Below, piece after piece: positions 8,439-27,619 of a stretch of DNA of 64,000 nucleotides. Position 1 is the first letter of the stretch, and each line of letters opens with the position of its first letter. A model generated the notes under the pieces. That model was given only the letters and a program-made list of their open reading frames with translations. It was not told the DNA's origin and did not search any database. The DNA is taken from positions 1,550,001 through 1,614,000 of the forward strand of contig NZ_CP139976.1 in the NCBI RefSeq assembly GCF_034424625.1, in the 5' to 3' direction. This stretch comes from Janthinobacterium lividum (GTDB lineage Bacteria > Pseudomonadota > Gammaproteobacteria > Burkholderiales > Burkholderiaceae_D). The position numbers and the translations under genes are program-made.

Positions 8439-9332
8439 TTACACCAGCGCGGCCGTCACGATGCGCGTGGCGGCCGTGATGATGTCTTGATTCGTGTCCG
8501 CTTTTTTCTGTTCGCGCGTGTAGTACACGGCGATCACCAGCGGCGCGCCGCTGGCCGGGTAGGCCACGCCGATATCGTTGACGCTGCCATACGCGCCCGA
8601 GCCCGTCTTGTCGGCCACCTGCCAGCCGGCCGGTACGCCGGCGCGGATGCGTTTGTCGCCTGTCGTGTTGCCGCGCATCCAGGCGTCCAGTTGCTGGCGC
8701 TGCGGCGCTGGCAAGCTATTTCCCAATAACAATTGCTGCAAGCTGTGCGCCATCGACGCGGGGCTGGCCGTGTCGCGCACTTCGCCGGGGATGGCGCTAT
8801 TCAATTCCGTTTCCCAGCGTTCCAGCTGGAACACCGTATTGCCGATGCTGCGCGCATAGGCCGTCACGGCTTGCGGCCCGCCTAATAATGTCATCAGGAA
8901 ATTGGCCGCGCTATTGTCGCTGTACTGCAAGGTGGCGGCGCACAGATCGGCCACGGTCATGCCGTCGGCCAGATGCTTTTCCGTGATGGGCGAATAGGTG
9001 ACCAGGTCTTTTTTCTCGTAACGCACGTGCTGGTCCAGCAAGCCCGGCTGGCTGACGCTGCGGGCCAGCACGGCGGCCGCCAGCATCGCCTTGAAGGTGC
9101 TGGCCAGGGGAAATCGTTCGTCGGCGCGATAGGCAACGCGCAGGTCGCTGCCCTGGCGCCAGGCGGCAACGCCGAGGCGTCCGCCGGCGGCTTTTTCCAG
9201 CGCGGCCAGTTGTGTCTGTGCTGCGGCGATGCTGGTGGCGGGCGCGGCAAACAGCAGCGGTGCCGGGCACAGCAGGGCGGCGCCGCCGGCCAGCAGGAGG
9301 TTGCGGCGGACGTGGTTCAGGGATTCAGTCAT
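8439..9332 (-). CDS. bla: Class A beta-lactamase
   Basis: This 297-residue serine beta-lactamase has every class A hallmark: the active-site STFK at 78-81, SDN at 138-140, the omega-loop general base in ETELN at 174-178, and KTG at 242-244. An N-terminal export signal (about 1-30) contains a twin arginine (VRRNLLLAGG), so Tat export is possible. The length is normal for the class. Its ATG lies inside the last codons of the upstream sensor kinase gene (8-base overlap), implying translational coupling. No ampR-like LysR gene is adjacent. The spectrum cannot be read from the sequence; it is likely a chromosomal species enzyme rather than an acquired one because composition and context are ordinary. 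Confidence 0.95.
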   Translation of the reverse strand: MTESLNHVRRNLLLAGGAALLCPAPLLFAAPATSIAAAQTQLAALEKAAGGRLGVAAWRQGSDLRVAYRADERFPLASTFKAMLAAAVLARSVSQPGLLDQHVRYEKKDLVTYSPITEKHLADGMTVADLCAATLQYSDNSAANFLMTLLGGPQAVTAYARSIGNTVFQLERWETELNSAIPGEVRDTASPASMAHSLQQLLLGNSLPAPQRQQLDAWMRGNTTGDKRIRAGVPAGWQVADKTGSGAYGSVNDIGVAYPASGAPLVIAVYYTREQKKADTNQDIITAATRIVTAALV

Positions 9333-12000: not shown

Positions 12001-12254
12001 GGAGGTTATGGACGATGGTGCAGGGGCCCCGCCGCACCGGAATGGGGCGGCCTGGCAACTCAATTCTGGCGATATTACAACTATTTATACGCTCTGGGCT
12101 GTCTTGCAGGACGCCGTTTCCACTTTCTCAGGGTTGGCGAAAAAATCGCGCCAGGCGGCAAGTGATCGGGGGAAATAGCAAGGAAATAGCAAGACAAGGG
12201 CGCTATTGTGGCTGAATAACCACTAGTCAGCGCATTATGTTGATGAATGAATAT

Positions 12255-12285
12255 TTTACATAACAATATTCTTGCAGCGTATAAG
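12255..12285 (+). promoter_or_regulatory. Possible sigma70 promoter for the TonB-dependent receptor
   Basis: TTTACA (12255-12260) and TATAAG (12280-12285) are separated by 19 bases, in an AT-rich patch that stands out from its surroundings. The spacing is at the long edge, so this is tentative. A transcript from here would have a leader of about 225 bases before the receptor gene. Confidence 0.35.
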
Positions 12286-12510
12286 GCGCTTGAATTAAAT
12301 TGGCGCCTTACTCAAAAGTTGGTGTTCATCAGACATCCCAGAGATGCGGCCAGACCGCTGTCGGCGTGGACGACAGCCAGGGCAGAGCCAGTGACGCCAT
12401 GGGCGGAGAAACATCCGCTCGCGCTGCTGCACCGTGATGGTGCAGGCGATCATCCAGCGCCGTACATAACCCGGAGACAGGTTTCGCAATTCTTTTTTAA
12501 ACTTCTGGGA
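12283..12510 (+). promoter_or_regulatory. Long structured leader of the TonB-dependent receptor gene
   Basis: The 516 bases between the kinase start and the receptor ATG hold no convincing gene. Several inverted repeats lie in series: an 8-base pair TAAGGCGC/GCGCCTTA flanking a 13-base loop (about 12282-12311), CTGTC/GACAG (12358-12376), GCGGA/TCCGC (12403-12418) and CTGCACC/GGTGCAG (12427-12445). They look like a folded 5' untranslated region that could control the receptor. It does not contain a recognisable cobalamin or other known riboswitch core. Confidence 0.35.
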
Positions 12511-12516
12511 AACAAC

Positions 12517-14748
12517 ATGATCAAGATGTCCAAGATGCACAAGCGTTTGTGCGCCAAAAGCGCTGCTATGCTGGCACTGTCCGCTGCCTTGCCTATCGGC
12601 TCGGCTTATGCTGATGAAGTCGCTGCTGATACGACCCCTGCCGCCAGCCAGCTGGAAACCGTGACCGTGACGGCGCAGCGCCGCAAGGAAAATATCCGCG
12701 ACGTGCCCGTCTCCGTGTCGCTGCTGCGCGACGAGAAGCTCGACGTGCTGGTGTCCAGCGGACAAGACATTCGCGTACTGGCCGGTAAAGTGCCGAGCCT
12801 GAACGTGGAATCGTCGAATGGCCGCACCTTCCCCCGCTTCTACATCCGCGGCTACGGCAATACCGACTTCAACATTTTTGCATCGCAACCTGTTTCCCTG
12901 ATTTACGACGATGTCGTGCAAGAAAATCCGATCCTCAAGGGCTATCCGATTTTCGACGTGGCTGGCGTGGAAGTGTTGCGCGGCCCGCAAGGCACCTTGT
13001 TCGGCCGCAATACGCCTGCCGGCGTGGTCAAGTTCGAATCCGTGAAGCCGAACCTGGACAAGGTTGAAGGCTACTACAACGTTTCCGCCGCCACGCACAA
13101 CACGACCAACTTCGACGGCGCCGTCAACGTGCCGCTGAGCAAAGAATGGGCGCTGCGCTTCTCGACCCTGCGCCAGCACCGCGACGATTACGTCGACAAC
13201 ACCTTTACGGGCCAGAAAAACGCGCTGGACGGCTACAACGAACACGCCGAGCGCGTGCAACTGATGTACGCACCGAACACCACCTTCAATGCCCTGTTCA
13301 ATGTGCACCAGCGTAACACCACGGGCAGCGCGCGCGTCTTCTACGCCAACATGATCAAGCAGGGCACGAACGACATCGTCGACGGTTTCGACCCGAACAA
13401 GTCGTTCACGAATGCGCCGAACTTCCAGCGCCTGCGCACCAACGGCGCCAGCGCCCGCCTGAGCTGGGACCTGGACGGTATTAAACTGTACTCGATCACG
13501 GGCTTTGAACAGGTCGGCAATTACGTGTCGCATGGCGATATCGATGGCGGCACGCCGACGGGTCCAGGCTTCATTCCTTTTCAGGTTGAAACGGCTGGCG
13601 GCATCACCAGCGTGAAACAATACTCGCAAGAATTCCGCGCCGAATCGAAGAATGCCGGTCCCCTCAACTGGCAGGCAGGCGTGTACTACTTCAACGAAGA
13701 TGCCAACGGTTTCACCGACAACTTCGATACCAACACGCATGTGCTGACCACGCACCTGGCCAGCCGCCAGAAGAACTCGGCCTGGGCAACGTTTGGTTCC
13801 GTCAACTACGCCGTCAGCGATGACTTCATGCTGCGCGCCGGCTTGCGCTACACCAAGGACAAGAAGGATTTCAACACGGTGGAAGCGACCAACATCGTGC
13901 AGGTCAACCCGACCAGCGCCGATGTCAGCAAAGCCAAGGTCAACTGGGACTTGAGCGGTACCTATAAATACAACAAGGACGTGAACTTCTACGGCCGTGT
14001 CGCTACCGGTTTCCGCGCGCCAAGTATCGCCCCGGCCAGCACCAGCGTGCCTGTCACCGTGGCCGATGCTGAAACGATCACCTCGTTCGAAGCGGGCATC
14101 AAGGCCGACCTGTTCGAGCGCCGCGCCCGCGTTGCCTTCAGCCTGTACAACTACCAGGTGAAGAACCAGCAATTGACGGTCGTTGGCGGCACTTCGAACG
14201 TGACGCGCCTGATCAATGCAGCCAAGACGAATGGCCGTGGCGCCGAGCTGGAACTGGAAGGTTTTGTCACGCCTAGCCTGAAGATGTCCCTGGGCGGCAG
14301 CTACAACTTCACGGAAATCAAGGACCCGAGCCTGTCGATCGCCACCTGTGCCCAAACGCGTTGCACCGTGACCGATTCGCTGACCACCGGCAACCGTGCC
14401 ATCATCGACGGCAATCCACTGCCGCAAGCGCCGAAGTGGACGATCACCGCCACGGGCCGTTATTCGATTCCGATGGAAAACGGCGAATTCTTTGTCTTCA
14501 CGGACTGGGCATACCGCAGCAAGATCAACTTCTTCCTGTATGAAGCAACCGAGTTCACCGGCAAGCCGATGGTCGAAGGCGGCTTGCGCGTAGGCTACAC
14601 CTGGGATGCCGGCAAGTATGAAGTGGCCGCTTTTGGCCGCAACATCACCGATACCCAGCGTATCACGGGCGCCATCGACTTCAACAACCGCACGGGCTTC
14701 ATCAATGAGCCACGTCAGTTTGGGGTGCAATTCAAAGGCAACTTCTAA
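12517..14748 (+). CDS. TonB-dependent outer membrane receptor
   Basis: This 743-residue protein is a TonB-dependent transporter for an unidentified ligand (siderophore, carbohydrate or similar). A signal peptide (about 1-31, ending GSAYA) is followed by a TonB box-like stretch (ETVTVTAQRRKEN), a plug domain with YIRGYGNTDFN and VEVLRGPQGTLFGRNTPAGV, and a 22-strand barrel that ends in the aromatic C-terminus KGNF expected of outer membrane proteins. An in-frame open stretch reaches back to 12247, but the signal peptide fixes the ATG at 12517. The ribosome site is weak (CTGGGA). No regulator or periplasmic binding gene is adjacent. The plug/barrel layout resembles the large family common in Caulobacter and sphingomonads. 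Confidence 0.95.
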   Translation: MIKMSKMHKRLCAKSAAMLALSAALPIGSAYADEVAADTTPAASQLETVTVTAQRRKENIRDVPVSVSLLRDEKLDVLVSSGQDIRVLAGKVPSLNVESSNGRTFPRFYIRGYGNTDFNIFASQPVSLIYDDVVQENPILKGYPIFDVAGVEVLRGPQGTLFGRNTPAGVVKFESVKPNLDKVEGYYNVSAATHNTTNFDGAVNVPLSKEWALRFSTLRQHRDDYVDNTFTGQKNALDGYNEHAERVQLMYAPNTTFNALFNVHQRNTTGSARVFYANMIKQGTNDIVDGFDPNKSFTNAPNFQRLRTNGASARLSWDLDGIKLYSITGFEQVGNYVSHGDIDGGTPTGPGFIPFQVETAGGITSVKQYSQEFRAESKNAGPLNWQAGVYYFNEDANGFTDNFDTNTHVLTTHLASRQKNSAWATFGSVNYAVSDDFMLRAGLRYTKDKKDFNTVEATNIVQVNPTSADVSKAKVNWDLSGTYKYNKDVNFYGRVATGFRAPSIAPASTSVPVTVADAETITSFEAGIKADLFERRARVAFSLYNYQVKNQQLTVVGGTSNVTRLINAAKTNGRGAELELEGFVTPSLKMSLGGSYNFTEIKDPSLSIATCAQTRCTVTDSLTTGNRAIIDGNPLPQAPKWTITATGRYSIPMENGEFFVFTDWAYRSKINFFLYEATEFTGKPMVEGGLRVGYTWDAGKYEVAAFGRNITDTQRITGAIDFNNRTGFINEPRQFGVQFKGNF

Positions 14749-14792: not shown

Positions 14793-14824
14793 AACCCGCC
14801 CGGTTCGCCGCGGCGGGTTTTTTT
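14793..14824 (+). terminator. Rho-independent terminator after the TonB-dependent receptor
   Basis: AACCCGCC (14793-14800) pairs with GGCGGGTT (14812-14819), followed by a run of seven T to 14824. It sits between convergent genes and its T-run touches the gluQRS stop codon. Confidence 0.85.
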
Positions 14825-15737
14825 ATGCCCGCTCGGGAAGTTGTGCCAGCCGCTGTGCCCAGGCGGGAATGGCTTGCTGCCAGAAATCTTCCACCTTGTC
14901 GGCGCGCACGTCGAGTCCCAGGAAGCGGGCGGCCGGCTGCAGCGCCGACGCCAGAAGGTCAGCAGCATTGCTTGCCGTATCGAAGGCGAGGGCGCCCGTC
15001 TGCTTGGACAGCTTTTCGCCGCTGTCGTTCATGACGACGGGCACGTGCAGGAAGCCGGGATGCGGCAAGCCCAGCACGTCCTGCAGATACAGTTGGCGCG
15101 GCGTGGAATCGAGCAAGTCCGCGCCGCGCACTACCTGCGTGATGCCCTGCGCGCCATCGTCGACCACCACGGCCAGCTGATACGCCCAGTAGCCATCGCC
15201 GCGCAGCACGATGAAGTCGCCCACTTCACTGGCCAGATCCTGCCGCTGCGGACCCGCCCAGCGGTCGGCAAACGCGTACACCGCATCGGCCCCCTGCGGT
15301 ACCCGCAGCCGCAAGGCCCGCGCCGCCTTGCCCGGTGCCAGTCCATGACGGCAGGTGCCCGGATACACGGCGGCCCCACCCTTGGGTCCGCCCGCCTGCA
15401 GCACCGAATCCTGGATCTCCTTGCGCGAACAGCCGCACGCATACACGAGGCCATCATCCTGCAACTGTTTCAGCGCCGCCTCGTACAGCGGCAAGCGCTT
15501 GCTCTGCCACGTCGCCTCGCCATCCCAGTACATGCCGCAGCGCTGCAGGCTGGCCAGGATGCCGAGATCGGCGCCCTCGACATTGCGGTCATAGTCCAGA
15601 TCCTCGATGCGCAGCAGCCACGTGCCCCGATGCACCTTCGCATCGAGATAACTGGCCATGGCGGCAACGAGCGAGCCCATGTGCAGAGGGCCGGAGGGGG
15701 AGGGGGCGAAGCGGCCGATGTAGGGGGAGGAGGGCAT
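14823..15737 (-). CDS. gluQRS: Glutamyl-Q tRNA(Asp) synthetase
   Basis: This 304-residue protein is the truncated glutamyl-tRNA synthetase paralogue that attaches glutamate to queuosine at the wobble base of tRNA-Asp. It has a class I HIGH-type motif HMGS at 19-22 after GRFAPSPSGPL, the GluQ zinc site (YACGCSR with a later YPGTCR), and the KMSKS-type loop KLSKQ near 241-245. It lacks the anticodon-binding domain, as the family does. The ATG at 15737 is followed directly by the Rossmann strand, so no extension is needed. It lies downstream of the Rhs-immunity unit on the same strand but has a 124-base gap and an unrelated function. Confidence 0.96.
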   Translation of the reverse strand: MPSSPYIGRFAPSPSGPLHMGSLVAAMASYLDAKVHRGTWLLRIEDLDYDRNVEGADLGILASLQRCGMYWDGEATWQSKRLPLYEAALKQLQDDGLVYACGCSRKEIQDSVLQAGGPKGGAAVYPGTCRHGLAPGKAARALRLRVPQGADAVYAFADRWAGPQRQDLASEVGDFIVLRGDGYWAYQLAVVVDDGAQGITQVVRGADLLDSTPRQLYLQDVLGLPHPGFLHVPVVMNDSGEKLSKQTGALAFDTASNAADLLASALQPAARFLGLDVRADKVEDFWQQAIPAWAQRLAQLPERA

Positions 15738-15861: not shown

Positions 15862-16239
15862 TCATCTATGATAATTTGACTTGATAATTTCTTTTGTTTT
15901 TTTTGAAATGGTATAGGTGATGGATCTTCCTAAAGATGTTTTTCCACCTAGTATTTTTTCTCCTGGTGAGAAATTTGGTACGAAGGTTATTTCAACATCT
16001 TCGTTGTTGTCTTGGATGTAGATTTCGAAATCGGAAATATTTTTTTGCATTTTTTTGAATTCATAAAAAGCTATAAGTAATATTTCAAATTTTTTTCCGG
16101 AAATTTTTTCTTCTGAGTTTTCTGTGTTGGACATATATTTTTTCACATTCGTATTTTTATCGGGAAAATTTTTTGAAATACTTTGCTGGCTGATAAATTC
16201 TAGGTTAAGTGCAAAAAAACAAGATATGATTTTTCTCAT
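15862..16239 (-). CDS. Putative immunity protein for the Rhs toxin
   Basis: This 125-residue, lysine- and asparagine-rich protein has no recognised domain. Its ATG overlaps the Rhs stop codon in an ATGA arrangement, the usual layout of a toxin tip and its immunity gene. The coding region is strikingly AT-rich, like the toxin-encoding end of the Rhs gene and unlike all other genes nearby, which suggests both arrived together. The first 15 residues are hydrophobic (MRKIISCFFALNLEF) and contain a cysteine, but not a proper lipobox, so a membrane or exported location is uncertain. The immunity function is inferred from position and composition. Confidence 0.75.
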   Translation of the reverse strand: MRKIISCFFALNLEFISQQSISKNFPDKNTNVKKYMSNTENSEEKISGKKFEILLIAFYEFKKMQKNISDFEIYIQDNNEDVEITFVPNFSPGEKILGGKTSLGRSITYTISKKTKEIIKSNYHR

Positions 16240-19200
16240 AGCGTATAGGTGATTCCACTCTTCGAATTATATCCTTTGAATACGCCACTTGGAGTGCCTA
16301 CGTATCCTCGATACTCTGTTTTTCCTTGGCCGCTCAATTTTGCTGCATTTTTATCTGCTGGGGAAAAATCGTTGCTGTTGAAGTAATCATTTTCTTTTGT
16401 TGTCGGTGTTCCATCTCTTTTTGAATAATTTCCGTGCGTATGCCAATATCCTGTTTCTTCACAATTCTTGGAAATTTTTTTTCCACTCCAGGGATCTACT
16501 CCATCAAGATCGCCTCGCGTCGCTTTTGTGAAATCGTATTTTCCATTTTTACCTTTGTAAATTAGCCCACCATACTCAAGATTGTCTCGAATTGACTTTG
16601 AATTGTAGCGAGTTAACGCTGCTCGGGCAGCTCCGTCAGCACTGGAGAACCGGCCACCGATACAACAGGGATTACATTTTTTTTGTAGTCCGAGTGGATC
16701 AATCCACATCGTGGGATTAGGGGCGTAGGTATACAAATTAACCCCGCCAGAGAGTCCCACTGGATCCTGACTGAGATATCTTGAAGTTTCAGGTTCGTAA
16801 TAGCGATACCGGTTGTAAAACAGTCCAGTCTCTTGATCCTCATACTGCCCCTGAAACCGCAGCGGCTGCTCGATTTCCCCTTCCACATAAAGCAAGCGTC
16901 CCCAGGTCTTGTAGCCCCCGCTCCAGACCAGGTTCCCTTGCGCATCCGTCAACTCGCGTGGCGTGCCCAGGTGATCGCAGTGGTAGTGGGTGATGCGGTC
17001 GTGTGCTGCCGCGCCGTCGGCTAACGCCTGGGTACGCTGCCATGCCGATACATGCTGCGCTTCGGTGTCCGCCTGTTCTTGCGTAATGGCTGCCTGGAGT
17101 TCGGTGTCGTGCCGGGAGGCAGGTAAATCCCATTGCGCGACGCGTGGCAGGTGGACGGCGCTTGCCTGGCGACAGGCTGGCGAACCGATCCTGGCCAGCG
17201 GCACGAAGCTGTCCGGCTCGTACAGGTATGTGACCGTCTCGTCGCGCCCAAGTTCCTGCGCCAGCGTGTCGCCATCCCAGACGAAGAAGGTGGTGGCGGC
17301 GTTCTTGCGGGCGGGCTGGCCTTTGGTGATGTCTTGCTGCTTGCTCCAGCGGGCCTCCTCGACGCGTTTGGCGATGCGGCGGCTGAAGGCGTCATAAAAG
17401 TAGCGGGCGCGGTGGCGCGATTGGCGTTCCGTTCGGGTGGCATGGCTGAGGCGGTTTTCGGCGTCGTATTCAAGCTCCAGGTCGCTCCAGCTCGACTCCC
17501 TGCCCGGCGGATGGAAGCGCTTGGCGGTGGCATTGCCTTGTTCGTCGTAGTCGTATTCGGAATTGCCGTAGCGTTTCAGTACGTTGCCGGAGGCGGGCGC
17601 AGTGTCGACCAGATTGCCTGCCGGGTCGAAGGCGAAGTGTTCGGCCAGGCCGGGTTGCACGGCGGACAGCAATTGCCCGACGGGGTCATAGGCGTAGCGC
17701 AGTTTGCCGAGCGGGCCGGCGGCCGTAATGCCCGTCTGCGAGATGGTGCGCAAGTTGCCCTGCGCATCGTAGTCAAAGTATCGCTCGCGCACGGGGACGG
17801 GCGCGTCGGCGCCGCGTGCCAGGGTCAGCCGGGTGAGGCGCGATTGCGGGTCGTACTGGCGCGTGGCGAGCAAGCCGCTGGTGCCCAGCTGCCGCTGCTT
17901 TTCGCGGTGCAGTTTGTCGCGTTCGACATCGACCACGGTCTTGCCATGCCACAGCACGCCGTGCCAGTGGCCGGAGCCGTAGCGAAGGGTGTCGACGCGG
18001 CGTCCATTCGGCAGGACGGTTTGGATACGGTTGCCCAGTTCGTCATAAGAGTGCGTCATGACAAAGCTGGCGTCCGGCGCGCGCGGGGTATTCGGCAGCC
18101 TGGCCGCTTCGGGCAGCGTTTGCAGGAAGCAGGCGCTGCGTTCTTCGATCAGTTGGCCCAGCGCATCATGGAAGAAACGCTGTTCGGCTTGTGGCGCGGA
18201 GACGGCCGTCAGGCGACCCAGCGCATCGTAGGCGTAGCGAACCGCACCGTCCGCCGTGGTCTTGACTTGCAACAAACCGAGCGCGTCGCGCAGCAACTGC
18301 GTGCGCTGGCTGCCGCACTCGGTGGTAGTGAGGTTGCCGGCAGGGTCATAGCTGTAGTGCGTGCGCTTGCCGTCGAAGCCCGTTTCCGACGACAGCCAGC
18401 CTTCCGCATGATATGCGAGCCGATAGCTTTCGCCCTTGGCGTTGATCAAGTCTGTCAGTTGCAGCGCAGCGTCGTAGCGATACTGCAAGGTCTGGCCGAT
18501 GGCGTCCGTGCGCTCCACGGGCAAGCCCTGGCCGTTGTAGCGGTAGCGTGTCTGCTGACCGGCCGCATCGACGTGCAAGACCAGATTGCCGTCCCCATCG
18601 TAGGCATATTGCTCCCGGGTCTGATCGGGCGCCGTGAGGCGGATCAGGCGGCCCAGCGCGTCATATTCGTAGCGGGTGGCATGGCCCAGCGCATCGCGGG
18701 CCGCTTCCAGCCGGCCCAGCGCATCGTAGGCGAATTCGCTGGTGTGGCCGGAGCAATCCGTGTAGCTGGTGAGCCAGCCATGACGGTTGTACTGGAAATG
18801 TTTGCTGCCGCCCCTGGCGTCGATCAGTTCCACCAGCTGGCCGCGCGGGTCGTAGCGGTAGCGCGTGACGTGGCCCAAGGCGTCCGTGATGCTGACGGGG
18901 CGGCCTGCAGCATCGTAGTCGCGGCGTGTGGTGTTGCCCAGCGCATCCGTGAAGGCGACGGGCTGGTTCTGGCTGTCGTAGTCGATGCTGTTGCTGTGTC
19001 CTTTGGCATCGGTGCTGCGGGTCAGGTTGCCGGCCGCATCGTAGGCATAGCGCGTGGCGGCGCCGTTGGCATCGATATCGGCCAGCAGCATGCCATCGCG
19101 GTCCCACTCGCGCCGGCCCAGCGAGGCAGCGTTGCCGTCGAGCACGCGGCGCACTTCGGTGGCCAGCCAGTTGGCGTCGAAGGTGTACTCGAGGACACCG

Positions 19201-21221
19201 CCGTTTTCCGTGACGCGGCTGGTGTCGTTGTCCACGTAATCGATGAGCGTGTGCTCGCTGCCATCGCACGCCCGCGTGGCGATGGCGCGCGCCTGGTAGC
19301 TGTTGGCCAGGGTCACGGGATGGTGCTGCGCCAGCTCCTGCTCGCTCAGCGGCGATCCGCTCCAGCGGGCGCGCAGCGCGTCCAGGCTGATCCATTCCAG
19401 CTCGTACGTAAAACCCGTGTAGCTGCCGCACGACGTGAGCAGGTGGTGGCGATAGCTGTAGCGGCGCGTGTCGCCCAGCGCATTCGACTGGCTGACCAGG
19501 TTGTGGCGGGGCGGGAAGGGCGGCTGCGTCTCGTTTGTTTCGGCTGCGTATTCGTAGCGTACGTGGCAGAGGCGGCCGCCGTCGGGCAATATCTCTTCGA
19601 TGCTGCCGATGTGGATGGCCTTTTCCGCTTCCCCGCGCATGGCTTCGAGCACGACGCCATCGTCGCTGCGCAGGCGCAGCAGCACGTCGCCCGGCTTGGC
19701 ATCGATCAAGCGGTCGATGCTGATGCCGCGTCCATCGCGTCCCTCGCTACGCACGAGTGCAAAGCGTTGCGTGGCGACGGGCGCGGACGGGACCAGCATG
19801 GCGTTGACGCCGTCGTAGCCGTGCGGCAGCCAGCCGCCTTCCGCGCGCGCAAAGCGGTCGACGCTGCCATCGCGCCACAGCAGGCTGAAGCTGTCGGCAC
19901 TGTCGCGCGTGAGCGTAAAACCTTCCCTGCGGCTGTCGTGTTGCTGACCCGGTTCCAGGCCAGGCAGGCGCAGGGCGCGGCCGCTGTCGTCGTGGTAGAC
20001 GATGCCGGCATCGCATAGCGACAGGCTGGTGGTGTAGGGCGTGGACCAGCGCGCACCCAGCAAGTCCCCATCTTCGCATTCGGCACCGGAGCGGTAGCAG
20101 CGCGTCCAGGCGATGGGGATGCTGCGTTCGAGCGCGAAATCCGTCTGGTACAGGATTTCCTGGCCCGTGCCGAAATGCACGGGCTTGCGGCCCTTGACGG
20201 ATCTTTTCGCGGGGCCGCTATCCTTGGGGCAGCAGTCGGACGGCGGCTCCGATTTCGGTTCTTTCCTGCCACGGCTCTTGCCGTCGTCGCCGCCGTTTTT
20301 CGGGGGTGGTTTTTCGAGTTTTGGCGGTGGCTTGTCCGGCTTTTTCCCGACCAGCTTTTCCTTGACCTTGTCGATGGTCGGCGCCGCCTTTTTGCCGAGG
20401 AACTTGCTCAGTATTTTCCCGCCCGGAACCTTGCTGAACACCGCCGTTTGCAATACTGTGCCTGCAGCATTCGTGACGATGTCCGAGGCCGTATTGAGTA
20501 AATCGGGGGTCTTGCCTGTCAATATGTAGTCGGCCGCCTGGTCGAGCACCGTGGCCGATGCGTCCATGGCCGTGCCTGACGCAACGGTCGCCGTGCCGGC
20601 CACAGCGCCCGCTGCCGCGCCCGCTTCCATCGCGGCGGCAGCGGGGGCGCCGACTCCCGTTGCCGCAACGCCCACTCCGGCGACGCCCAGCACGGCGCTG
20701 CCTGTCAGGACGGTGCCGCCCACGTCTACCAGATCTTCGGCGGCGCCGTGCATTTTCCTGGAGCCGTGATCCTTGTAATCCTGTGCCGCTTCCCGTATCG
20801 CCGCCTTCAGTTCCTTGAGCACGGGCTTGGCCGCCTCCCCACCCCGCTCATAAATCTTGCCCACGGTATTGCGCGAATTCATCCATACTTCGCGCCCCAT
20901 CTGCACCAGGTAGGCGCCGTTGGCGCGGTGGATGCTGCTGGCGACCTTGGTGTCGACCTGCTTGCCGACGGTGCCGCTCTTGACGCCGCCCGCCTTGCCG
21001 GCCGCGTCGCCCTTGACGGTGGGAATGGTGCTGCGCTGGTGCAGGATGACGGGTTCGCTGTGCGACTTGACGTTGGGCGAGGCGTTCTGTGCTTCCGAGA
21101 ATTCACCGATGATGCTGTAGGGAATAGGCGGCGTGCTGGAGCCGACGGGCGTCTTGCAAATGTCGGGACTGAGGCTGACGCAATAGAAGCGCGATGCCTT
21201 GGTGACGGTTTCATTCGTCAT
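16236..21221 (-). CDS. Rhs-family T6SS effector with DUF4329-like toxin tip
   Basis: This 1661-residue protein is a T6SS-linked Rhs toxin. The N-terminus (about 10-130) resembles the PAAR-like DUF4150 region. Hydrophobic Ala/Gly/Val segments at about 170-235 could cross the target membrane. The Rhs shell follows with many YD repeats, ending in the core motif HCDHLGTPRELTDAQG and the cleavage-type border DPLGL at 1508-1512. The variable tip is 1513-1661 and resembles DUF4329. In it E1549 (EYGGLIY), H1594-x-H1596 (WHTHG) and S1620-x-x-D1623 (SPAD) reproduce the ligand order of JAB/JAMM metallopeptidases. The tip-encoding DNA is AT-rich while the shell is GC-rich. Its ATG overlaps the DUF2169 gene stop (ATGA), and the immunity ATG overlaps its own stop. 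Peptidase activity is inference. Confidence 0.93.
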   Translation of the reverse strand: MTNETVTKASRFYCVSLSPDICKTPVGSSTPPIPYSIIGEFSEAQNASPNVKSHSEPVILHQRSTIPTVKGDAAGKAGGVKSGTVGKQVDTKVASSIHRANGAYLVQMGREVWMNSRNTVGKIYERGGEAAKPVLKELKAAIREAAQDYKDHGSRKMHGAAEDLVDVGGTVLTGSAVLGVAGVGVAATGVGAPAAAAMEAGAAAGAVAGTATVASGTAMDASATVLDQAADYILTGKTPDLLNTASDIVTNAAGTVLQTAVFSKVPGGKILSKFLGKKAAPTIDKVKEKLVGKKPDKPPPKLEKPPPKNGGDDGKSRGRKEPKSEPPSDCCPKDSGPAKRSVKGRKPVHFGTGQEILYQTDFALERSIPIAWTRCYRSGAECEDGDLLGARWSTPYTTSLSLCDAGIVYHDDSGRALRLPGLEPGQQHDSRREGFTLTRDSADSFSLLWRDGSVDRFARAEGGWLPHGYDGVNAMLVPSAPVATQRFALVRSEGRDGRGISIDRLIDAKPGDVLLRLRSDDGVVLEAMRGEAEKAIHIGSIEEILPDGGRLCHVRYEYAAETNETQPPFPPRHNLVSQSNALGDTRRYSYRHHLLTSCGSYTGFTYELEWISLDALRARWSGSPLSEQELAQHHPVTLANSYQARAIATRACDGSEHTLIDYVDNDTSRVTENGGVLEYTFDANWLATEVRRVLDGNAASLGRREWDRDGMLLADIDANGAATRYAYDAAGNLTRSTDAKGHSNSIDYDSQNQPVAFTDALGNTTRRDYDAAGRPVSITDALGHVTRYRYDPRGQLVELIDARGGSKHFQYNRHGWLTSYTDCSGHTSEFAYDALGRLEAARDALGHATRYEYDALGRLIRLTAPDQTREQYAYDGDGNLVLHVDAAGQQTRYRYNGQGLPVERTDAIGQTLQYRYDAALQLTDLINAKGESYRLAYHAEGWLSSETGFDGKRTHYSYDPAGNLTTTECGSQRTQLLRDALGLLQVKTTADGAVRYAYDALGRLTAVSAPQAEQRFFHDALGQLIEERSACFLQTLPEAARLPNTPRAPDASFVMTHSYDELGNRIQTVLPNGRRVDTLRYGSGHWHGVLWHGKTVVDVERDKLHREKQRQLGTSGLLATRQYDPQSRLTRLTLARGADAPVPVRERYFDYDAQGNLRTISQTGITAAGPLGKLRYAYDPVGQLLSAVQPGLAEHFAFDPAGNLVDTAPASGNVLKRYGNSEYDYDEQGNATAKRFHPPGRESSWSDLELEYDAENRLSHATRTERQSRHRARYFYDAFSRRIAKRVEEARWSKQQDITKGQPARKNAATTFFVWDGDTLAQELGRDETVTYLYEPDSFVPLARIGSPACRQASAVHLPRVAQWDLPASRHDTELQAAITQEQADTEAQHVSAWQRTQALADGAAAHDRITHYHCDHLGTPRELTDAQGNLVWSGGYKTWGRLLYVEGEIEQPLRFQGQYEDQETGLFYNRYRYYEPETSRYLSQDPVGLSGGVNLYTYAPNPTMWIDPLGLQKKCNPCCIGGRFSSADGAARAALTRYNSKSIRDNLEYGGLIYKGKNGKYDFTKATRGDLDGVDPWSGKKISKNCEETGYWHTHGNYSKRDGTPTTKENDYFNSNDFSPADKNAAKLSGQGKTEYRGYVGTPSGVFKGYNSKSGITYTL

Positions 21222-22516
21222 TTGTCTTTACCTTGCCCGGCCGCCTTGCCCAGTGCTTCCTGGGCCTGTTCCAGCAGTTCGATGCGTGCGATCTGCGCCG
21301 GCTCCATCGCGTGCAGCAGGCGCGACTCTACCTGGCCAGCGTCGGCCGGCACGATGGCGCGCCACACCAGTTCCACAGTGGCCGCTTCGGGGTCGACCAG
21401 CACCGTATCGATGACCAGGCGCCAGACGAGCAACTGATCGTTCTTGTCCGCCAGCAGCAGGCACAGCACCTGTTGCGGCAGGGCGAAACGCAGCACCGTG
21501 TTGCCGCGCGGGTCGATGCGGGCCGACGGATGGTCGTGGCGGCACAGGTTGGTCAAGGTGAATTGTTCCAGTCCCGCCAGGTGCGGACATTGCTGGTCCG
21601 GCGGCGTGCTGTTCCAGTAGGCGAAATCGAAGTCTTCCGGCAGGGCAGGGACTTCATCGGCATCCCATTTGTCCTTGACGACGATGCTGCCTGCCAGCGC
21701 GCGGCGCGGCAGCCAGCCACGGCCGATAACGACCAGCCCCGCCGGTGCCGGCAGCTCCTTGCCGCCCGCGCCTTGCCAGAACTGGGCGGCCGTGCACAGC
21801 AGAGATGCATCCGTGATGCGCGGTGCGGGCACCTCGTCAATATGTTTCGCATCCAGGTACCAGTGCCGCGCAAAACCCCGTCCCAACGGATTGGCCTGGC
21901 AAGAATCGTGCTTCGCCGCGGTGCAGTCATCGGCCTCGATGCGGCATTGGCTGCCATACGCATAGGCGTAGTGCAGCGGCAATTGCTGGAATGGTTCTGG
22001 CGCCGACAGGTGCCAGGGGTTGGGCCGCAGCCAGCCCACGGTGCCGATGCGGATGCAGCCCTGCGCCAGGCGCGTGAGGATGGCTTTCTTGCGGAAAGCG
22101 CGTTCGCCGCACACTTGCAGGGTCTTGTCGATCAGGGTTTTCTTTTCCGACTGCACTTTCAGGTTGACGAGAAATTGCGGCATCGCTTGCCCGCGCGGTG
22201 CGTGCGCCACCCCATTGACGATCACGTCGCAGCGCGGCTTGTAGGGCGCGAAGTCGCTCTCCTGCACGATGCCCGCCTGCGTGTCGCCATCCAGGTGCCG
22301 GTCTTCCGTGGCCAGCGGCGATGGGCGCGCCATGGGCAGCAGGCTGGCCAGTCCGTCCGCACCGCAGGGGCCCAGGGTGTAGCCCATGCGCGCCACCACA
22401 ACGTGAAAGGCTGCGCCAAACTGGTCGACCATGTCGAACTGGCTGGCCGCATGCGGCGTGCGGTTGTCGAAAAGCAGATTGGGAATGTTGAAATGGGTTG
22501 TGCCGGCGTCGTTCAT
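21218..22516 (-). CDS. DUF2169 T6SS effector adaptor
   Basis: This 432-residue protein belongs to the DUF2169 family, which in several T6SS loci acts as a chaperone/adaptor needed to load PAAR- or Rhs-containing effectors on VgrG. Family features are the start with NLLFDNRTPHAASQFDMVD, a central KPRCDVIVNGVAHAPRG strand pair, and a WQ/FNPW-type region (WLRPNPWHLSAPEPFQQL). It lies between vgrG and the Rhs gene, starting two bases after the vgrG stop and overlapping the Rhs ATG by four bases, so all three are one operon. It is expected to be cytoplasmic and to bind the Rhs N-terminus. Confidence 0.9.
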   Translation of the reverse strand: MNDAGTTHFNIPNLLFDNRTPHAASQFDMVDQFGAAFHVVVARMGYTLGPCGADGLASLLPMARPSPLATEDRHLDGDTQAGIVQESDFAPYKPRCDVIVNGVAHAPRGQAMPQFLVNLKVQSEKKTLIDKTLQVCGERAFRKKAILTRLAQGCIRIGTVGWLRPNPWHLSAPEPFQQLPLHYAYAYGSQCRIEADDCTAAKHDSCQANPLGRGFARHWYLDAKHIDEVPAPRITDASLLCTAAQFWQGAGGKELPAPAGLVVIGRGWLPRRALAGSIVVKDKWDADEVPALPEDFDFAYWNSTPPDQQCPHLAGLEQFTLTNLCRHDHPSARIDPRGNTVLRFALPQQVLCLLLADKNDQLLVWRLVIDTVLVDPEAATVELVWRAIVPADAGQVESRLLHAMEPAQIARIELLEQAQEALGKAAGQGKDK

Positions 22517-22518
22517 CG

Positions 22519-24660
22519 TCAGCCCGGATTGTTGTCGATGTCGTCGCCATGGATCTGCACCTTCGATCTGCCGCGGATGATGATTTCATCGGCAACGAGT
22601 TCGATGCGGCCGGGCGTGATGGTGATGCTGGAGGTGCCCACCGTCATCGTGTGCGAATCGGTGGCCGTGAGCGTGCTGTCGGCGCCGACGATGACGCTTT
22701 TCGCCAGGCCGATCTGCTCGGCCTGCGCCAGCACCACGGTGGTGTTCATGGCGCCGATGACGGTGGTCTGGTAAGCGGCGCCGATGGTCAGCACCTTGGC
22801 CAGGCCGATAGTTTCGTCCTTGGCCAGGGTCACCCGTTCCGAACGGTGGCCGTCGATCTGCACCTGCTCGTTGCCGCCCACGTGTTCGCGGCGGTTGTCG
22901 CCAATGTCGATGTGTTCGTCATGGTCGACGCGTTCACGGCGGTTGTTATGCACGGTGATGTCTTCATCGTGGTCCACCGTCTCCGTGCGGTCGCGCTTGA
23001 CGTGCACGGTTTCATCGCGGTCGATGGTTTTGCGCCGGTCGTTGCCAACCCAGTGCGATTCATCATGTTCGACTTCGATGCGCTGGTCTTTTTCCGCATG
23101 CAGCCACAGTTCTTCGGCGTCCTTGCGGTCTTCGAAGCGCAAGGCGTTGGCGTGCGCGGCGGAACCCTTTTTTGAGGAGCGGCTCAGCATGCCGCTTTGC
23201 GTCTTGTTCGCTGGCAAATCCCACGGCGGCATGTTGCGCGCGTTGTAGACGCAGCCGATGATGAGGGGCATGGCGACATTACCGTCAAGAAATTGCACGG
23301 CCACTTCCATGCCCACCCGGGGCAGGCTGATGTGGCCGAAATTCGGGCCGGCCCAGTTCGATATCACCCGTATCCACGGCGAACTTTTGTCATCGAAGGT
23401 GCCGAGTCGGTCCCAGTGAAATTGCAGCTTCACCCGTCCGTAACCATCCGTGTGGATTTCCTCGCCGGGCGGCCCGACGACGGTGGCCGTCTGCACGCCA
23501 TAGATCTTCGGTTCGTGGCTATGGAAGTTGCGTCCCGGGCGCCAGGGGATGGCGCGGGGGATGCAGGTAAATGTGTTGCTGTATTGCGAGGTGGCGCCGT
23601 GCCCTTGCTGGTAGTTGTTGCTGGCATGGTGGTGCACGGAGAGGATCAGATATTCGCTGGTTGCACTGTCGAAATGCCCGCCCAGCGTGAACCAGCGTCC
23701 CGGTTGCGCCGTGCGGTCATTGCCTTGCGCTTCGAACAGCTGTCCCTGCGCGTCAACCTCTTCCATGCGGCGCCGCGCCAGCGCCTCGCCATCGTCGATG
23801 TTTTTAAAACCGTAGCTGCCCGTGTTTTCATATACTTCCAGCGATGGCACGGCACCCTGCCGGTTCAGCGAGTCGCGGCTGGCGCGGGCACTGCGCGGGT
23901 TCTTGAAATTGAAACTGGCCACCGTCATCTGGCTTGGCGCCATGCGCCGCACCGTGCTCCATTGATGCACACCATCGTCCTCCAGGGAACCGGCCTGGTG
24001 CTGGAAGGGCATTTCGCTCAGATCGCCATCGATGGGCTTGCCGGTAGTGCTGTCGTCGGACAGCCACAAGGTGTGGCCGTCAGGGCGGTGTTCGTAGCGG
24101 TAGTGCCAGCCCAGTTGCTCCCAATGGCGGTGCAGCAGGTTGTGGTCGCTCTCGTTGTGCTGGCACGTGTAGGTGATGGCAGGGTCGGCTCCGCTGGCGG
24201 CCAGCTTGTAGTCGCGCATCAGGTAATCATCGAAGACCTTGTCCGTCAGCGCCGCCACCGTCAAGCCGTGGAAGGCGACATTGTTTTGCCGCAAGTGCAG
24301 GTGCGACAGCCACGGTTCCAGCACCATTTCATAAAAGGCGAAGCCGCCGTCCGTGCGCAGGAAGCGGAATTCGAACACATAGCCATTGAAGTAGCGCAAG
24401 GTGCCGTCTTCGCGCACCAGTTCGATGCTCACCATCTTGCCCATCACCTTGTCGAGGGCGATGAGGGCGTCGTCGGAGAGTACTTCCACCACATAGGAAA
24501 AGTCGCGCGACAGGCTTTCGCTCGCGTCGAGGCTGTTGGCAAGTAACTGGATGCCGGCAGGCCCGTCGCCATGCGGAAACTGCAGGCGCAGCAGGCGCTG
24601 GCCCTGCATGTCGCCCGTTAATGCCGTCCATGCCGCCGTCGTATTGGGGAACAGGCTCAT
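22519..24660 (-). CDS. vgrG: Type VI secretion tip protein VgrG
   Basis: This second VgrG (713 residues from the ATG at 24660; the frame is open to 24741 but that would overlap tssG) has the gp27-like N-terminal half, including TYTCQHNESDHNLLHRHWEQ, then the gp5 OB-like segment (PWIRVISNWAGPNFGHISLP, GMEVAVQFLDGNVAMP). The C-terminal needle (about 520-700) is a run of short degenerate repeats rich in DRxExVxxDE and HD, typical of the gp5 beta-helix. It lacks the DUF2345 and tail extension of the first VgrG. It sits between tssG and the DUF2169/Rhs genes, so the Rhs protein is its likely cargo. Confidence 0.95.
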   Translation of the reverse strand: MSLFPNTTAAWTALTGDMQGQRLLRLQFPHGDGPAGIQLLANSLDASESLSRDFSYVVEVLSDDALIALDKVMGKMVSIELVREDGTLRYFNGYVFEFRFLRTDGGFAFYEMVLEPWLSHLHLRQNNVAFHGLTVAALTDKVFDDYLMRDYKLAASGADPAITYTCQHNESDHNLLHRHWEQLGWHYRYEHRPDGHTLWLSDDSTTGKPIDGDLSEMPFQHQAGSLEDDGVHQWSTVRRMAPSQMTVASFNFKNPRSARASRDSLNRQGAVPSLEVYENTGSYGFKNIDDGEALARRRMEEVDAQGQLFEAQGNDRTAQPGRWFTLGGHFDSATSEYLILSVHHHASNNYQQGHGATSQYSNTFTCIPRAIPWRPGRNFHSHEPKIYGVQTATVVGPPGEEIHTDGYGRVKLQFHWDRLGTFDDKSSPWIRVISNWAGPNFGHISLPRVGMEVAVQFLDGNVAMPLIIGCVYNARNMPPWDLPANKTQSGMLSRSSKKGSAAHANALRFEDRKDAEELWLHAEKDQRIEVEHDESHWVGNDRRKTIDRDETVHVKRDRTETVDHDEDITVHNNRRERVDHDEHIDIGDNRREHVGGNEQVQIDGHRSERVTLAKDETIGLAKVLTIGAAYQTTVIGAMNTTVVLAQAEQIGLAKSVIVGADSTLTATDSHTMTVGTSSITITPGRIELVADEIIIRGRSKVQIHGDDIDNNPG

Positions 24661-24737
24661 CGCACATCGCTTCACGGTAGGGATCGTTGGCCGACTGTAG
24701 CAATAGCAAACACAAGCGTTTTGTGCGGCCGCAAGGA

Positions 24738-25778
24738 TCAATCGTTGAATGAGGGCATCAATCGCATCTCGTAATGTTTGTCATCGCGGTGGCGCGGCGT
24801 TGCCGCACCGCCGAGGAAACTGTTGCAGCCCAGGCCGCCTTGTGGCGCGGTTGTCAATGCCGTCCCCCGCACATCGCTGGCGCGCAGCACCAGCACGATG
24901 TCGTAGCGCACGAGCGGCTGGCCGAACAGCATCAGCATGTGGCGCAACGCGTGGCTACCAGGGGCGCGCGGCAGGAAGCTGGCGTGCTGCTGCGCCGTGA
25001 GCGGACCGAGGCGCAGGCGTACGGCCAGGTCGGGGCGGCGGCAGCGTTCGCCGACGAGGGCGCGCTGGCCCAGCATGGCATTTTCCATGCCCAACGCCGT
25101 TTGTTCGCGCGGCGCCAGCACGTCCATGGCGCCCGTCGCTTCGTCGATATGACAAGGCACGCCGAAGTGGTCGCCGAGGATGCGCGCCATGACGATGGAC
25201 GAGATGTTGTGCTGCTGTAGCAAGCCGCTGTACAAGCCGGCCGCTGCCTCGTCCTGGCCCGGTTGGCATGCGGCCAGGGTCAGCAGGCGCGACAGGAAGT
25301 CCCCGCTGTGGCAGGCCTGCTCGATGCGGTATTTTCGCCAGGCCTGGTAAAACAGGGCGATGGTGCGGCTGGAAAACAGGTCGAGGAAAGCGCGCGGGCT
25401 ATTCTCGCGTTCGCTATGCTGGTGCGCGGCAATGCGCTCCGAATAGTGGCTGGGCAAGCTGCCTTGGCAGCCCAGGAGGCCCATGAAGGTGGGCGTGAGG
25501 TGGATGTGCTGGCCGTGACCGGACAGCAGCGCTTGCAGCAGGGCATCCGCATCGCCGATGCTGTTTGCCGTGAGCGTTTCGACCTGGCTGGCGGGAAAAC
25601 GCAGCGAGACGCTGTTGTCGAAGCGTATGTGCTTTGCCAGCGCCGTGTGCTCATCGATACCGTGTTCGGCCAGCCACGCCAGCAGCAGGCGCAGCGCCTG
25701 GAAGCACTCGAAGCGCTGCGGCGCATCGAGCAATTGCTGGATTACGCTGGCGTGGCGTCGGCGCTGCGTTCTGGGCAT
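24738..25778 (-). CDS. tssG: T6SS baseplate protein TssG
   Basis: This 346-residue protein is TssG (ImpH/VasB), a wedge component of the T6SS baseplate that works with TssF. It has the family's N-terminal FECFQALRLL, the block SVSLRFPASQV, FMGLLGCQGSLPSHYSE, and DLFSSRTIALFYQAWRKYR. The ATG at 25778 gives a 37-base overlap with tssF, so the two are co-translated, as is usual. Core genes tssB, C, E, H, K, L and M are not in the window. Confidence 0.96.
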   Translation of the reverse strand: MPRTQRRRHASVIQQLLDAPQRFECFQALRLLLAWLAEHGIDEHTALAKHIRFDNSVSLRFPASQVETLTANSIGDADALLQALLSGHGQHIHLTPTFMGLLGCQGSLPSHYSERIAAHQHSERENSPRAFLDLFSSRTIALFYQAWRKYRIEQACHSGDFLSRLLTLAACQPGQDEAAAGLYSGLLQQHNISSIVMARILGDHFGVPCHIDEATGAMDVLAPREQTALGMENAMLGQRALVGERCRRPDLAVRLRLGPLTAQQHASFLPRAPGSHALRHMLMLFGQPLVRYDIVLVLRASDVRGTALTTAPQGGLGCNSFLGGAATPRHRDDKHYEMRLMPSFND

Positions 25779-27619
25779 CGCAGGAGTTCCTCGCCGCTGC
25801 GATGAGACAGCAGCGTCAGTTGGCTAAAGCAGTTGAGCTGGCTGTTCAGGGCGAAATAGCGTTGCAGCACCTGGGCAAAAATATAGATGCTGCTGCCGAC
25901 GAAGGCTTGCTCGTCGATGCCCAGGCGGATGGCGATGCCGGGCATCAGGGTGGGAAACGGGACCGTTGGCATCCACGCGCGCGTGCTGCCGTGCTCGAGC
26001 GTGACGATGCCCTGGATCAGGCGTTGCGTGGCGGGCGAGCGGGGCAGGTCGTACAGACTCAGCATTTTCTGGAATTCACCCAGGCCCGCCTGCGTGAGGC
26101 TCGAGTAATTGAGCGACAGGTGCGCGATCAGGCGCCAGTGCGTGTCCGCCAGGAAACGCATGCTGGGTGACGGTTTGCGCAGGAAGCGCGCGGGGATGCC
26201 GTCGGGTACGTCCTCGGCCAGCAGGTCGCCGCCGGGCAAGCCGTAGTGCAACTGCACGGGCAAGTCGCGGTTGCTGCACAGCAGTTGCGTCGAGACGGTG
26301 GCGCAGGCCGCGCTGCTTGGTGAAAACTGCGGGTCGATCAGGCTCAGGCGCATTTCGTGACCGGGGCTGATGGCGGCCACGGTTTCGTCGCGGCGCGCCA
26401 GCCAGTACTGTCCATGCTCTGGGCCATGCTCCTGGCCACGCTCTTGACCGTGTTCGGCCTGGGCGCCTTGCAGCGAGGCATACAACGGCAGGAAGCTGCT
26501 CAGGCGCTCGCCGGTTTCGTCCTTGCGCACTACGGTGACGGCTGCGATGCTGTGGATGTCATAGGCAAACGCATGCGTGGCATCGGCCACCAGCGCATAG
26601 TCGGGCTCGGTATGCGTGAGGCGGATCGGCACGCCGGATTTGGCAAACAGGTTGACGACGGGCGTGCAGCCCAGCAAGAGGTTGTCGCGGCTGACGCCGG
26701 ACAAGAGCCGCGCTTCGTGGCTGTCGCTGCGCACGCCCTTGAGCGGCAGGTGCAAGGTGAACTGGCGGCACTGTTTTGGCAGCAGGGCAGCCAGCAGGGA
26801 CCATCCGATATCGATGAAGTGAAATTTTTCCGGAAACGCAAAGTACTCGGTCAGCAGGCGCAGGGCCGGGTGCGAGCGGGCGGAAATGGGGATCAGTGCG
26901 TCGTCTTCCGCATAGCCGGCCGGCGCCAGCGGCGTGCCATCGACGGCTTGCCACGGCCCGTGTTCGTCCAGCGCCACGTACGCGCCCGCGCCGCGCAGGA
27001 ACAGGGCGTCGAGCAGGGCCGCACGCACGGACGGTTCGCCATCGGCAAACAGGCGCAGGCTGGCAAAACCCGGCTGATCCAGATGATAGTTGTCGCTGCT
27101 GCTGGTGAACTGGATGCTGAGCAAGGCGCTGGCGCCAGCGGGCAGGCGCAGGCCGGGCGGCGCGTCGATGACAGGTGAGAAATGCAGGCGAGAAATGACC
27201 AGCGGCGCCAGGGTCACGTCATACGCGCTCGTAAATTTGCAAGCCACGCCCTGCACCGGCTGCGAACGCAGCACCGTGCCGCGCGCCACATGCGCCACCT
27301 GGTCCAGCTGGCCGCCGCCCGGCGCTTCGTCGGTGGCGATGCGCACGATGGAGCACGAGGGAAACGGCCGCAGGTAGTGCGGGTACAGGGTGTCGAGCAG
27401 GGAATGGGTAAATTGCGGATAGGCGTCGTCGAGGCGCTTGGCGACCCTGGCCGTGAGCAGGGCGACGGACTGGATCAGGCGCTCGATGTGCGGGTCTTCG
27501 CAGGTTTCTCCAGCGATCAGCAGTCGCCCGGCCGCCTTCGGATAGCGGCTGGAAAACTCGCGCGTGTATTGGCGAAACAGGCCCAGCTCGCGCTCGTAAT
27601 ATGGCAGTAGTTGTTCCAC
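25742..27619 (-). CDS. tssF: T6SS baseplate protein TssF
   Basis: This 625-residue protein is TssF (ImpG/VasA), the partner of TssG in the baseplate wedge. Diagnostic segments are LLPYYERELGLFRQYTREFS at the N-terminus, DPHIERLIQSVALLTARV, and DDAYPQFTHSLLDTLYPHYL. Its length matches the family. The start is a GTG at 27619 with GGAGAG upstream; no ATG gives a better N-terminus. No tssE or other core gene precedes it: the upstream gene on this strand encodes an outer membrane protein, so this tssFG pair is detached from the usual core cluster or is its boundary. Confidence 0.96.
   Translation of the reverse strand: MEQLLPYYERELGLFRQYTREFSSRYPKAAGRLLIAGETCEDPHIERLIQSVALLTARVAKRLDDAYPQFTHSLLDTLYPHYLRPFPSCSIVRIATDEAPGGGQLDQVAHVARGTVLRSQPVQGVACKFTSAYDVTLAPLVISRLHFSPVIDAPPGLRLPAGASALLSIQFTSSSDNYHLDQPGFASLRLFADGEPSVRAALLDALFLRGAGAYVALDEHGPWQAVDGTPLAPAGYAEDDALIPISARSHPALRLLTEYFAFPEKFHFIDIGWSLLAALLPKQCRQFTLHLPLKGVRSDSHEARLLSGVSRDNLLLGCTPVVNLFAKSGVPIRLTHTEPDYALVADATHAFAYDIHSIAAVTVVRKDETGERLSSFLPLYASLQGAQAEHGQERGQEHGPEHGQYWLARRDETVAAISPGHEMRLSLIDPQFSPSSAACATVSTQLLCSNRDLPVQLHYGLPGGDLLAEDVPDGIPARFLRKPSPSMRFLADTHWRLIAHLSLNYSSLTQAGLGEFQKMLSLYDLPRSPATQRLIQGIVTLEHGSTRAWMPTVPFPTLMPGIAIRLGIDEQAFVGSSIYIFAQVLQRYFALNSQLNCFSQLTLLSHRSGEELLRCPERSADATPA

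Follow-up and report, generated by a model that had tools for sequence, protein, structure and literature searches.

Toxin tips of the Tox-JAB-2 class have been known since 2012, when Zhang et al. (PMC3482391), in a passage on such toxins, named "Tox-JAB-2 (DUF4329 in Pfam)" and characterized it by a Glu, an H[ST]H motif, a Ser, and an Asp in association with RHS repeats. The same passage points to the residues that line the tunnel for the ubiquitin tail, which are not conserved, and argues from this that toxin JAB domains may have nuclease activity of the sort proposed for RadC. It gives Imm-NTF2-2, from Escherichia coli only, as the partner of Tox-JAB-2, and a lipoprotein, Imm65, as the partner of Tox-JAB-1. 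In other surveys, DUF4329 is labelled RNase twice for Salmonella and once for enterohemorrhagic E. coli (EHEC); the EHEC survey noted that its RhsB tip resembles the lid of the human 26S proteasome and kept the RNase label nonetheless. Here, we describe a tip of this kind in a 64,000-nucleotide stretch of the Janthinobacterium lividum genome (the window). It is a member of the known Tox-JAB-2/DUF4329 family and is carried by an Rhs effector of the type VI secretion system (T6SS). The likeliest activity for it is to cleave an amide or isopeptide bond in the target cell envelope in a metal-dependent manner, the main rival being a cytosolic nuclease. A preliminary description had read the tip as a JAMM enzyme and had stated no function for DUF4329; the JAMM idea is right in kind, and the published class already supplied it, together with a predicted function.

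Predicted catalytic residues and fold of the tip

The tip and its motif residues are located as follows, with the roles of the residues assigned by analogy.

16236..21221, minus strand: PAAR-like Rhs effector, 1661 aa (open reading frame [ORF]; Pfam Tox-PAAR-like, DUF6531, RHS repeats, RHS, and DUF4329)
16239..16685, minus strand: toxin tip after DPLGL, residues 1513-1661 (DUF4329; structure model and matches)
16575..16577, minus strand: E1549 (GAG), predicted water-activating Glu
16434..16442, minus strand: H1594-T-H1596, predicted zinc ligands (H1594, CAT, 16440-16442; H1596, CAC, 16434-16436)
16365..16433, minus strand: 23-residue stretch from HxH to S, exceeding the x7 of JAMM
16353..16364, minus strand: S1620-x-x-D1623, predicted S and zinc-ligand D (S1620, TCC, 16362-16364; D1623, GAT, 16353-16355)

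The tip matched DUF4329 (PF14220) with an E value of 5.4e-21 and 75.2 bits, against a curated Pfam cutoff of 28.6, so the resemblance noticed earlier from the letters holds. Because of this match, the order Glu, HxH, SxxD is more than a chance arrangement. The tip is like Tox-JAB-2 as described in the PMC3482391 passage in its Pfam match, in the E, HTH, S, and D residues, and in its place at the end of an Rhs protein encoded next to T6SS genes. All five residues are invariant in alignments A1 (11 rows) and A3 (54 rows); the rows of A3 were chosen by a motif demanding these residues, and its count of 54/54 is circular when taken alone. A profile scan of genome contigs found the full pattern in 51 of 53 loci, a figure that mainly tests S and D, as the scan patterns included the E or the HxH stretch. 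The two exceptions were L059, whose sequence is cut short, and L016, in which an insertion separates S from D. In a protein search, E, HTH, and FS..D were kept in 12/12 matches, one of which (P0012) has an insertion between S and D. The ligand order of the preliminary description, and the conservation among DUF4329 relatives on which it had staked its case, are thereby upheld. Zinc chemistry at this site, to judge from the conserved ligands, is very probable.

The classical JAMM motif has the spacing HxH-x7-SxxD. The tip departs from it with x23 between H1596 and S1620, the longer gap that had been pointed out before; over 64 family segments the gap ranged from 10 to 29 residues under a search pattern that permitted 9-33. 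We regard the tip as an enzyme of JAMM fold into which a loop has been inserted, and we do not class it with the classical JAMM peptidases. That the cassette has decayed or lost its activity and now serves no function would suit its low, cassette-like G+C content and the apparent frame breaks of some relatives (L016 and L022), but it is hardly credible given an open frame with all five predicted catalytic residues intact and close relatives that keep them.

The structure model of the tip had a pLDDT of 94. It places the Glu ahead of a strand, HxH at a strand end, and S and D at the start of a helix. A structure search with the model returned JAMM/MPN proteins, including the isopeptidases Rpn11, AMSH/Sst2, CSN5, and Pyrococcus JAMM1, and the tip almost certainly adopts the JAB/JAMM fold, if the model is taken as a guide. 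Its identity to these isopeptidases is 12-19%; it differs from them in the gap of 23 residues versus 7 between HxH and S and in having no link to ubiquitin-like proteins. RadC (7% identity) ranked below the peptidase-type JAMM structures, with all of them within about 2 Z units. In a local HHalign profile alignment, all five ligand columns were aligned with those of Prok-JAB (PF14464), with a probability of only 17-18%; the global alignment was poor (2.5%), and the local one was used instead. The JAMM relation was detectable only by such structure or profile-profile comparison. Pfam gave no match of the tip to PF14464, and PDB sequence searches, run with the tip by itself and with the family profile, yielded nothing beyond weak, unrelated matches (chalcone isomerase, E 0.45; tenascin and a zinc-finger protein, E 0.087 or worse). 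The tip alone and the downstream ORF had no match in NCBIfam or PADLOC.

The predicted fold, the conserved ligands, and the Prok-JAB columns thus speak for the JAB/JAMM part of the preliminary description. Its zinc isopeptidase or protease part is a conjecture, the family prediction in the published passage being a nuclease. The published analogy between Tox-JAB-2 and RadC would make the JAMM-fold tip a DNase or RNase at work in the cytosol of the target, a reading that in our view is rather improbable. The structure ranking argues against it within the narrow Z range given above, and the export signals described below fit no cytosolic nucleic-acid target.

Putative immunity proteins and the site of action

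The gene following the effector is the candidate for immunity.

15862..16239, minus strand: 125-aa putative immunity protein whose N-terminus has a signal-like stretch (ORF; relatives adjoin DUF4329 tips; structure model)

This ORF overlaps the Rhs stop by 4 bases, and its hydrophobic stretch scores 2.04. The downstream ORFs of 16 loci align to it with 18-46% identity (alignment A2; the distant ones by alignment alone), and a profile search gave 70 relatives. No Pfam or NCBIfam family covers the relatives (53 scanned), which had only weak matches in one member each. The published Tox-JAB-2 comes with a nuclease guess and an Imm-NTF2-2 partner in the PMC3482391 passage, whereas the partner here belongs to no Pfam or NCBIfam family and looks exported. 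An NTF2 fold with a conserved Tyr and Trp is expected of Imm-NTF2-2 according to that passage, and the window protein has no Trp; one relative carries the source name "NTF2 fold." The model of the 125-aa protein consists of a helix and a four-stranded sheet, and its top structure matches are cystatin-like; Foldseek alone gave no confident fold (best E 0.13). In L065-L068, from two genomes of one genus, two immunity relatives each lie about 1 kb apart. The copies inspected have no Rhs tip upstream, and stops sit where the signal would be.

A clear export-type N-terminus, scored by a rough hydrophobicity rule, was found downstream of the tip in 13 of 18 loci (the window, L011, L012, L014, L016-L021, L025, L045, and L125), of which L045 and L125 have downstream ORFs of apparently other families. 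L022, whose downstream protein has a lipobox, is frame-broken near the tip end and was left out of the count. By a near-identical rule, the excess at DUF4329 loci over other Rhs loci has a Fisher p of 0.004, or 0.005 with equal limits. Export of the downstream protein is frequent in this sample and is not a law. As far as such predicted signals go, putative immunity proteins that are for the most part exported argue against nucleic acids as the target in this clade.

Export is also indicated for the free-standing family members, as it is for the immunity proteins. DUF4329 proteins of this kind in Rhodobacteraceae carry predicted signal peptides or lipoboxes (L058, L060, L061, and L063), and in those of marine gammaproteobacteria (L024-L057), a signal peptide is followed by a region of β-barrel appearance by eye, then a hydrophobic stretch, and DUF4329 at the C-terminus. 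By a separate rule, 21/32 free-standing proteins were scored as exported, compared with 30/152 neighboring ORFs, the members being related to one another. The translated neighbors of seven free-standing loci, inspected with no family search, offered no hint of what the substrate might be. L060, L061, and L062 each have two DUF4329 segments close together, which in L061 are two adjacent ORFs with signal-like starts.

Several observations weigh against a periplasmic site of action. The export signal of the window protein itself is weak, with a Glu inside the hydrophobic core. The starts of the downstream proteins are unclear in L013 and L015 (Variovorax), and three of the 18 loci (L023, L030, and L117) have downstream proteins without a signal. 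These signal-less forms are mixed with signal-bearing ones (L018-L020 and L025) in an apparent single toxin subgroup. Among other Rhs loci, 12/41 pass the export rule, and five more have a later membrane stretch; the Fisher p of 0.004 also makes the excess look stronger than it is, because the DUF4329 loci are kin. Orphan immunity relatives of 90-94 aa in Janthinobacterium genomes have no signal. In a Salmonella survey based on SignalP and TMHMM, the partners of its DUF4329 effectors are reported to have neither a signal peptide nor a transmembrane segment, and an eLife paper, with reference to Ma et al. 2017, counts a Tox-JAB-2 effector as one of the nuclease effectors.

With both sides considered, the tip acts in the periplasm with fair likelihood, given the export signals. 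It may instead be a peptidase on a cytosolic target protein, with the exported immunity protein merely intercepting the toxin as it crosses the periplasm. The JAMM fold and the mixture of signal and no-signal partners within one toxin subgroup are compatible with such an enzyme, the exported appearance of the free-standing members is not, and we know of no cytosolic target; we consider it unlikely.

Here, we propose a mechanism for the effector. The PAAR-like end would ride on the VgrG spike, and the Rhs shell would carry the toxin, with the tip being released after DPLGL. The released tip, a predicted JAMM-fold hydrolase of the Tox-JAB-2/DUF4329 family, would act as a metallo-(iso)peptidase once in the periplasm of the cell under attack. 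A zinc ion on H1594, H1596, and D1623 would hold a water molecule, and E1549 would activate it. The bond cut may be an amide or isopeptide bond of the envelope, in a protein or in or to peptidoglycan; this substrate is a guess. The overlapping downstream gene would provide an exported immunity protein, which probably binds the tip in the periplasm. Taken as a whole, this account of a T6SS Rhs effector with a JAMM-fold tip acting as a periplasmic metallo-(iso)peptidase has a slight edge in our judgment.

The predicted effector resembles the T6SS effectors that act in the periplasm in its delivery route and in having a putative immunity protein that looks exported in most loci. Tae, Tge, and Tle are such effectors with exported immunity, and they have other folds than the tip. 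DUF4329 tips have so far been labelled as unknown, nuclease, or RNase in the literature cited above. Should the tip prove to act in the periplasm, the nuclease and RNase labels would fail for at least this clade, and a role on the envelope side would be added to those of the JAMM fold. No such role turned up in the literature searched on JAMM or JAB with peptidoglycan, periplasm, or type VI secretion. A broader idea, which we put forward as a long shot, is that DUF4329 represents a JAMM branch no longer tied to ubiquitin-like proteins or to the cytoplasm. It would act on the envelope as an isopeptidase for the D-Ala-diaminopimelate cross-link of peptidoglycan or the lipoprotein-peptidoglycan link, present on Rhs tips and in exported free-standing forms, with exported cystatin-like immunity.

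Effector gene and type VI secretion operon

The remaining parts of the effector and the genes upstream of it are listed below.

20859..21179, minus strand: Tox-PAAR-like domain, residues 15-121 (Pfam PF13665, E 3.3e-24)
16686..16913, minus strand: Rhs-associated core, directly before the tip (TIGR03696 match, G000:C1:1566686-1566913)
21218..22516, minus strand: DUF2169 protein (Pfam PF09937, E 4.2e-63), which we take to be the effector adaptor
22519..24741, minus strand: VgrG spike protein (Pfam Phage_GPD, Gp5_trimer_C, and Phage_base_V)
24738..25778, minus strand: TssG (Pfam PF06996, E 1.1e-65)
25742..27619, minus strand: TssF (Pfam PF05947, E 5e-165)

The Pfam domains of the Rhs ORF are arranged in the order Tox-PAAR-like, DUF6531, ten RHS-repeat stretches, RHS domain, and C-terminal DUF4329. 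The genes for TssF, TssG, VgrG, and the DUF2169 protein, followed by the Rhs ORF, lie on one strand, with ends that overlap or nearly touch. The locus has all the features of a T6SS PAAR-Rhs effector: a PAAR-like N-terminus, Rhs repeats and core, a variable tip, a small downstream gene, and a nearby vgrG. From this operon, delivery of the Rhs protein by the T6SS is highly likely. A second Rhs core is present on another contig of the same genome (G000:C2:320893-321156) in an open frame of 2336 aa.

Cassette composition, distribution, and neighboring genes

The G+C content is 0.42 in the tip, 0.28 in the 125-aa ORF, and 0.65 in the Rhs core; an exchangeable toxin-immunity cassette should show such a contrast. 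Its promoter and terminator patterns were uninformative. The genome of the window has one DUF4329 match, and the nearest named proteins to the tip are from Janthinobacterium. DUF4329 is rare, occurring in 8/369 genomes sampled in the class and 3/399 in the order, including the window's own. In the scan of genome contigs, DUF4329 tips were found on Rhs effectors across many Proteobacteria; the lineage list for Tox-JAB-2 in the PMC3482391 passage does not include β-proteobacteria. No DUF4329 relative was confirmed in a scan of viral contigs, and scans of phages and plasmids gave one short record and three records, respectively.

Some loci depart from the common arrangement. L023 encodes a 278-aa protein in which a PAAR-looking N-terminus is fused directly to DUF4329, with no Rhs shell. 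In L022 (Rheinheimera maricola), the frame of the tip, near 4001-4431, leaves the family pattern after SxxD and, meeting no stop codon, joins the frame of the downstream gene. The Rhs tip of L115 has HTHP and a later SxxD, and may be another JAB toxin class; the next ORF has a signal-like start and a charged soluble domain.

Three other ORFs of the window were noted.

14823..15737, minus strand: protein with a tRNA-synthetase class I (E and Q) catalytic domain, 304 aa, adjoining the toxin cassette downstream
12247..14748, plus strand: 833-aa TonB-dependent receptor whose plug domain is preceded by a long N-terminal stretch; the true start may lie further in
8439..9332, minus strand: 297-aa ORF, class A β-lactamase-like by eye only
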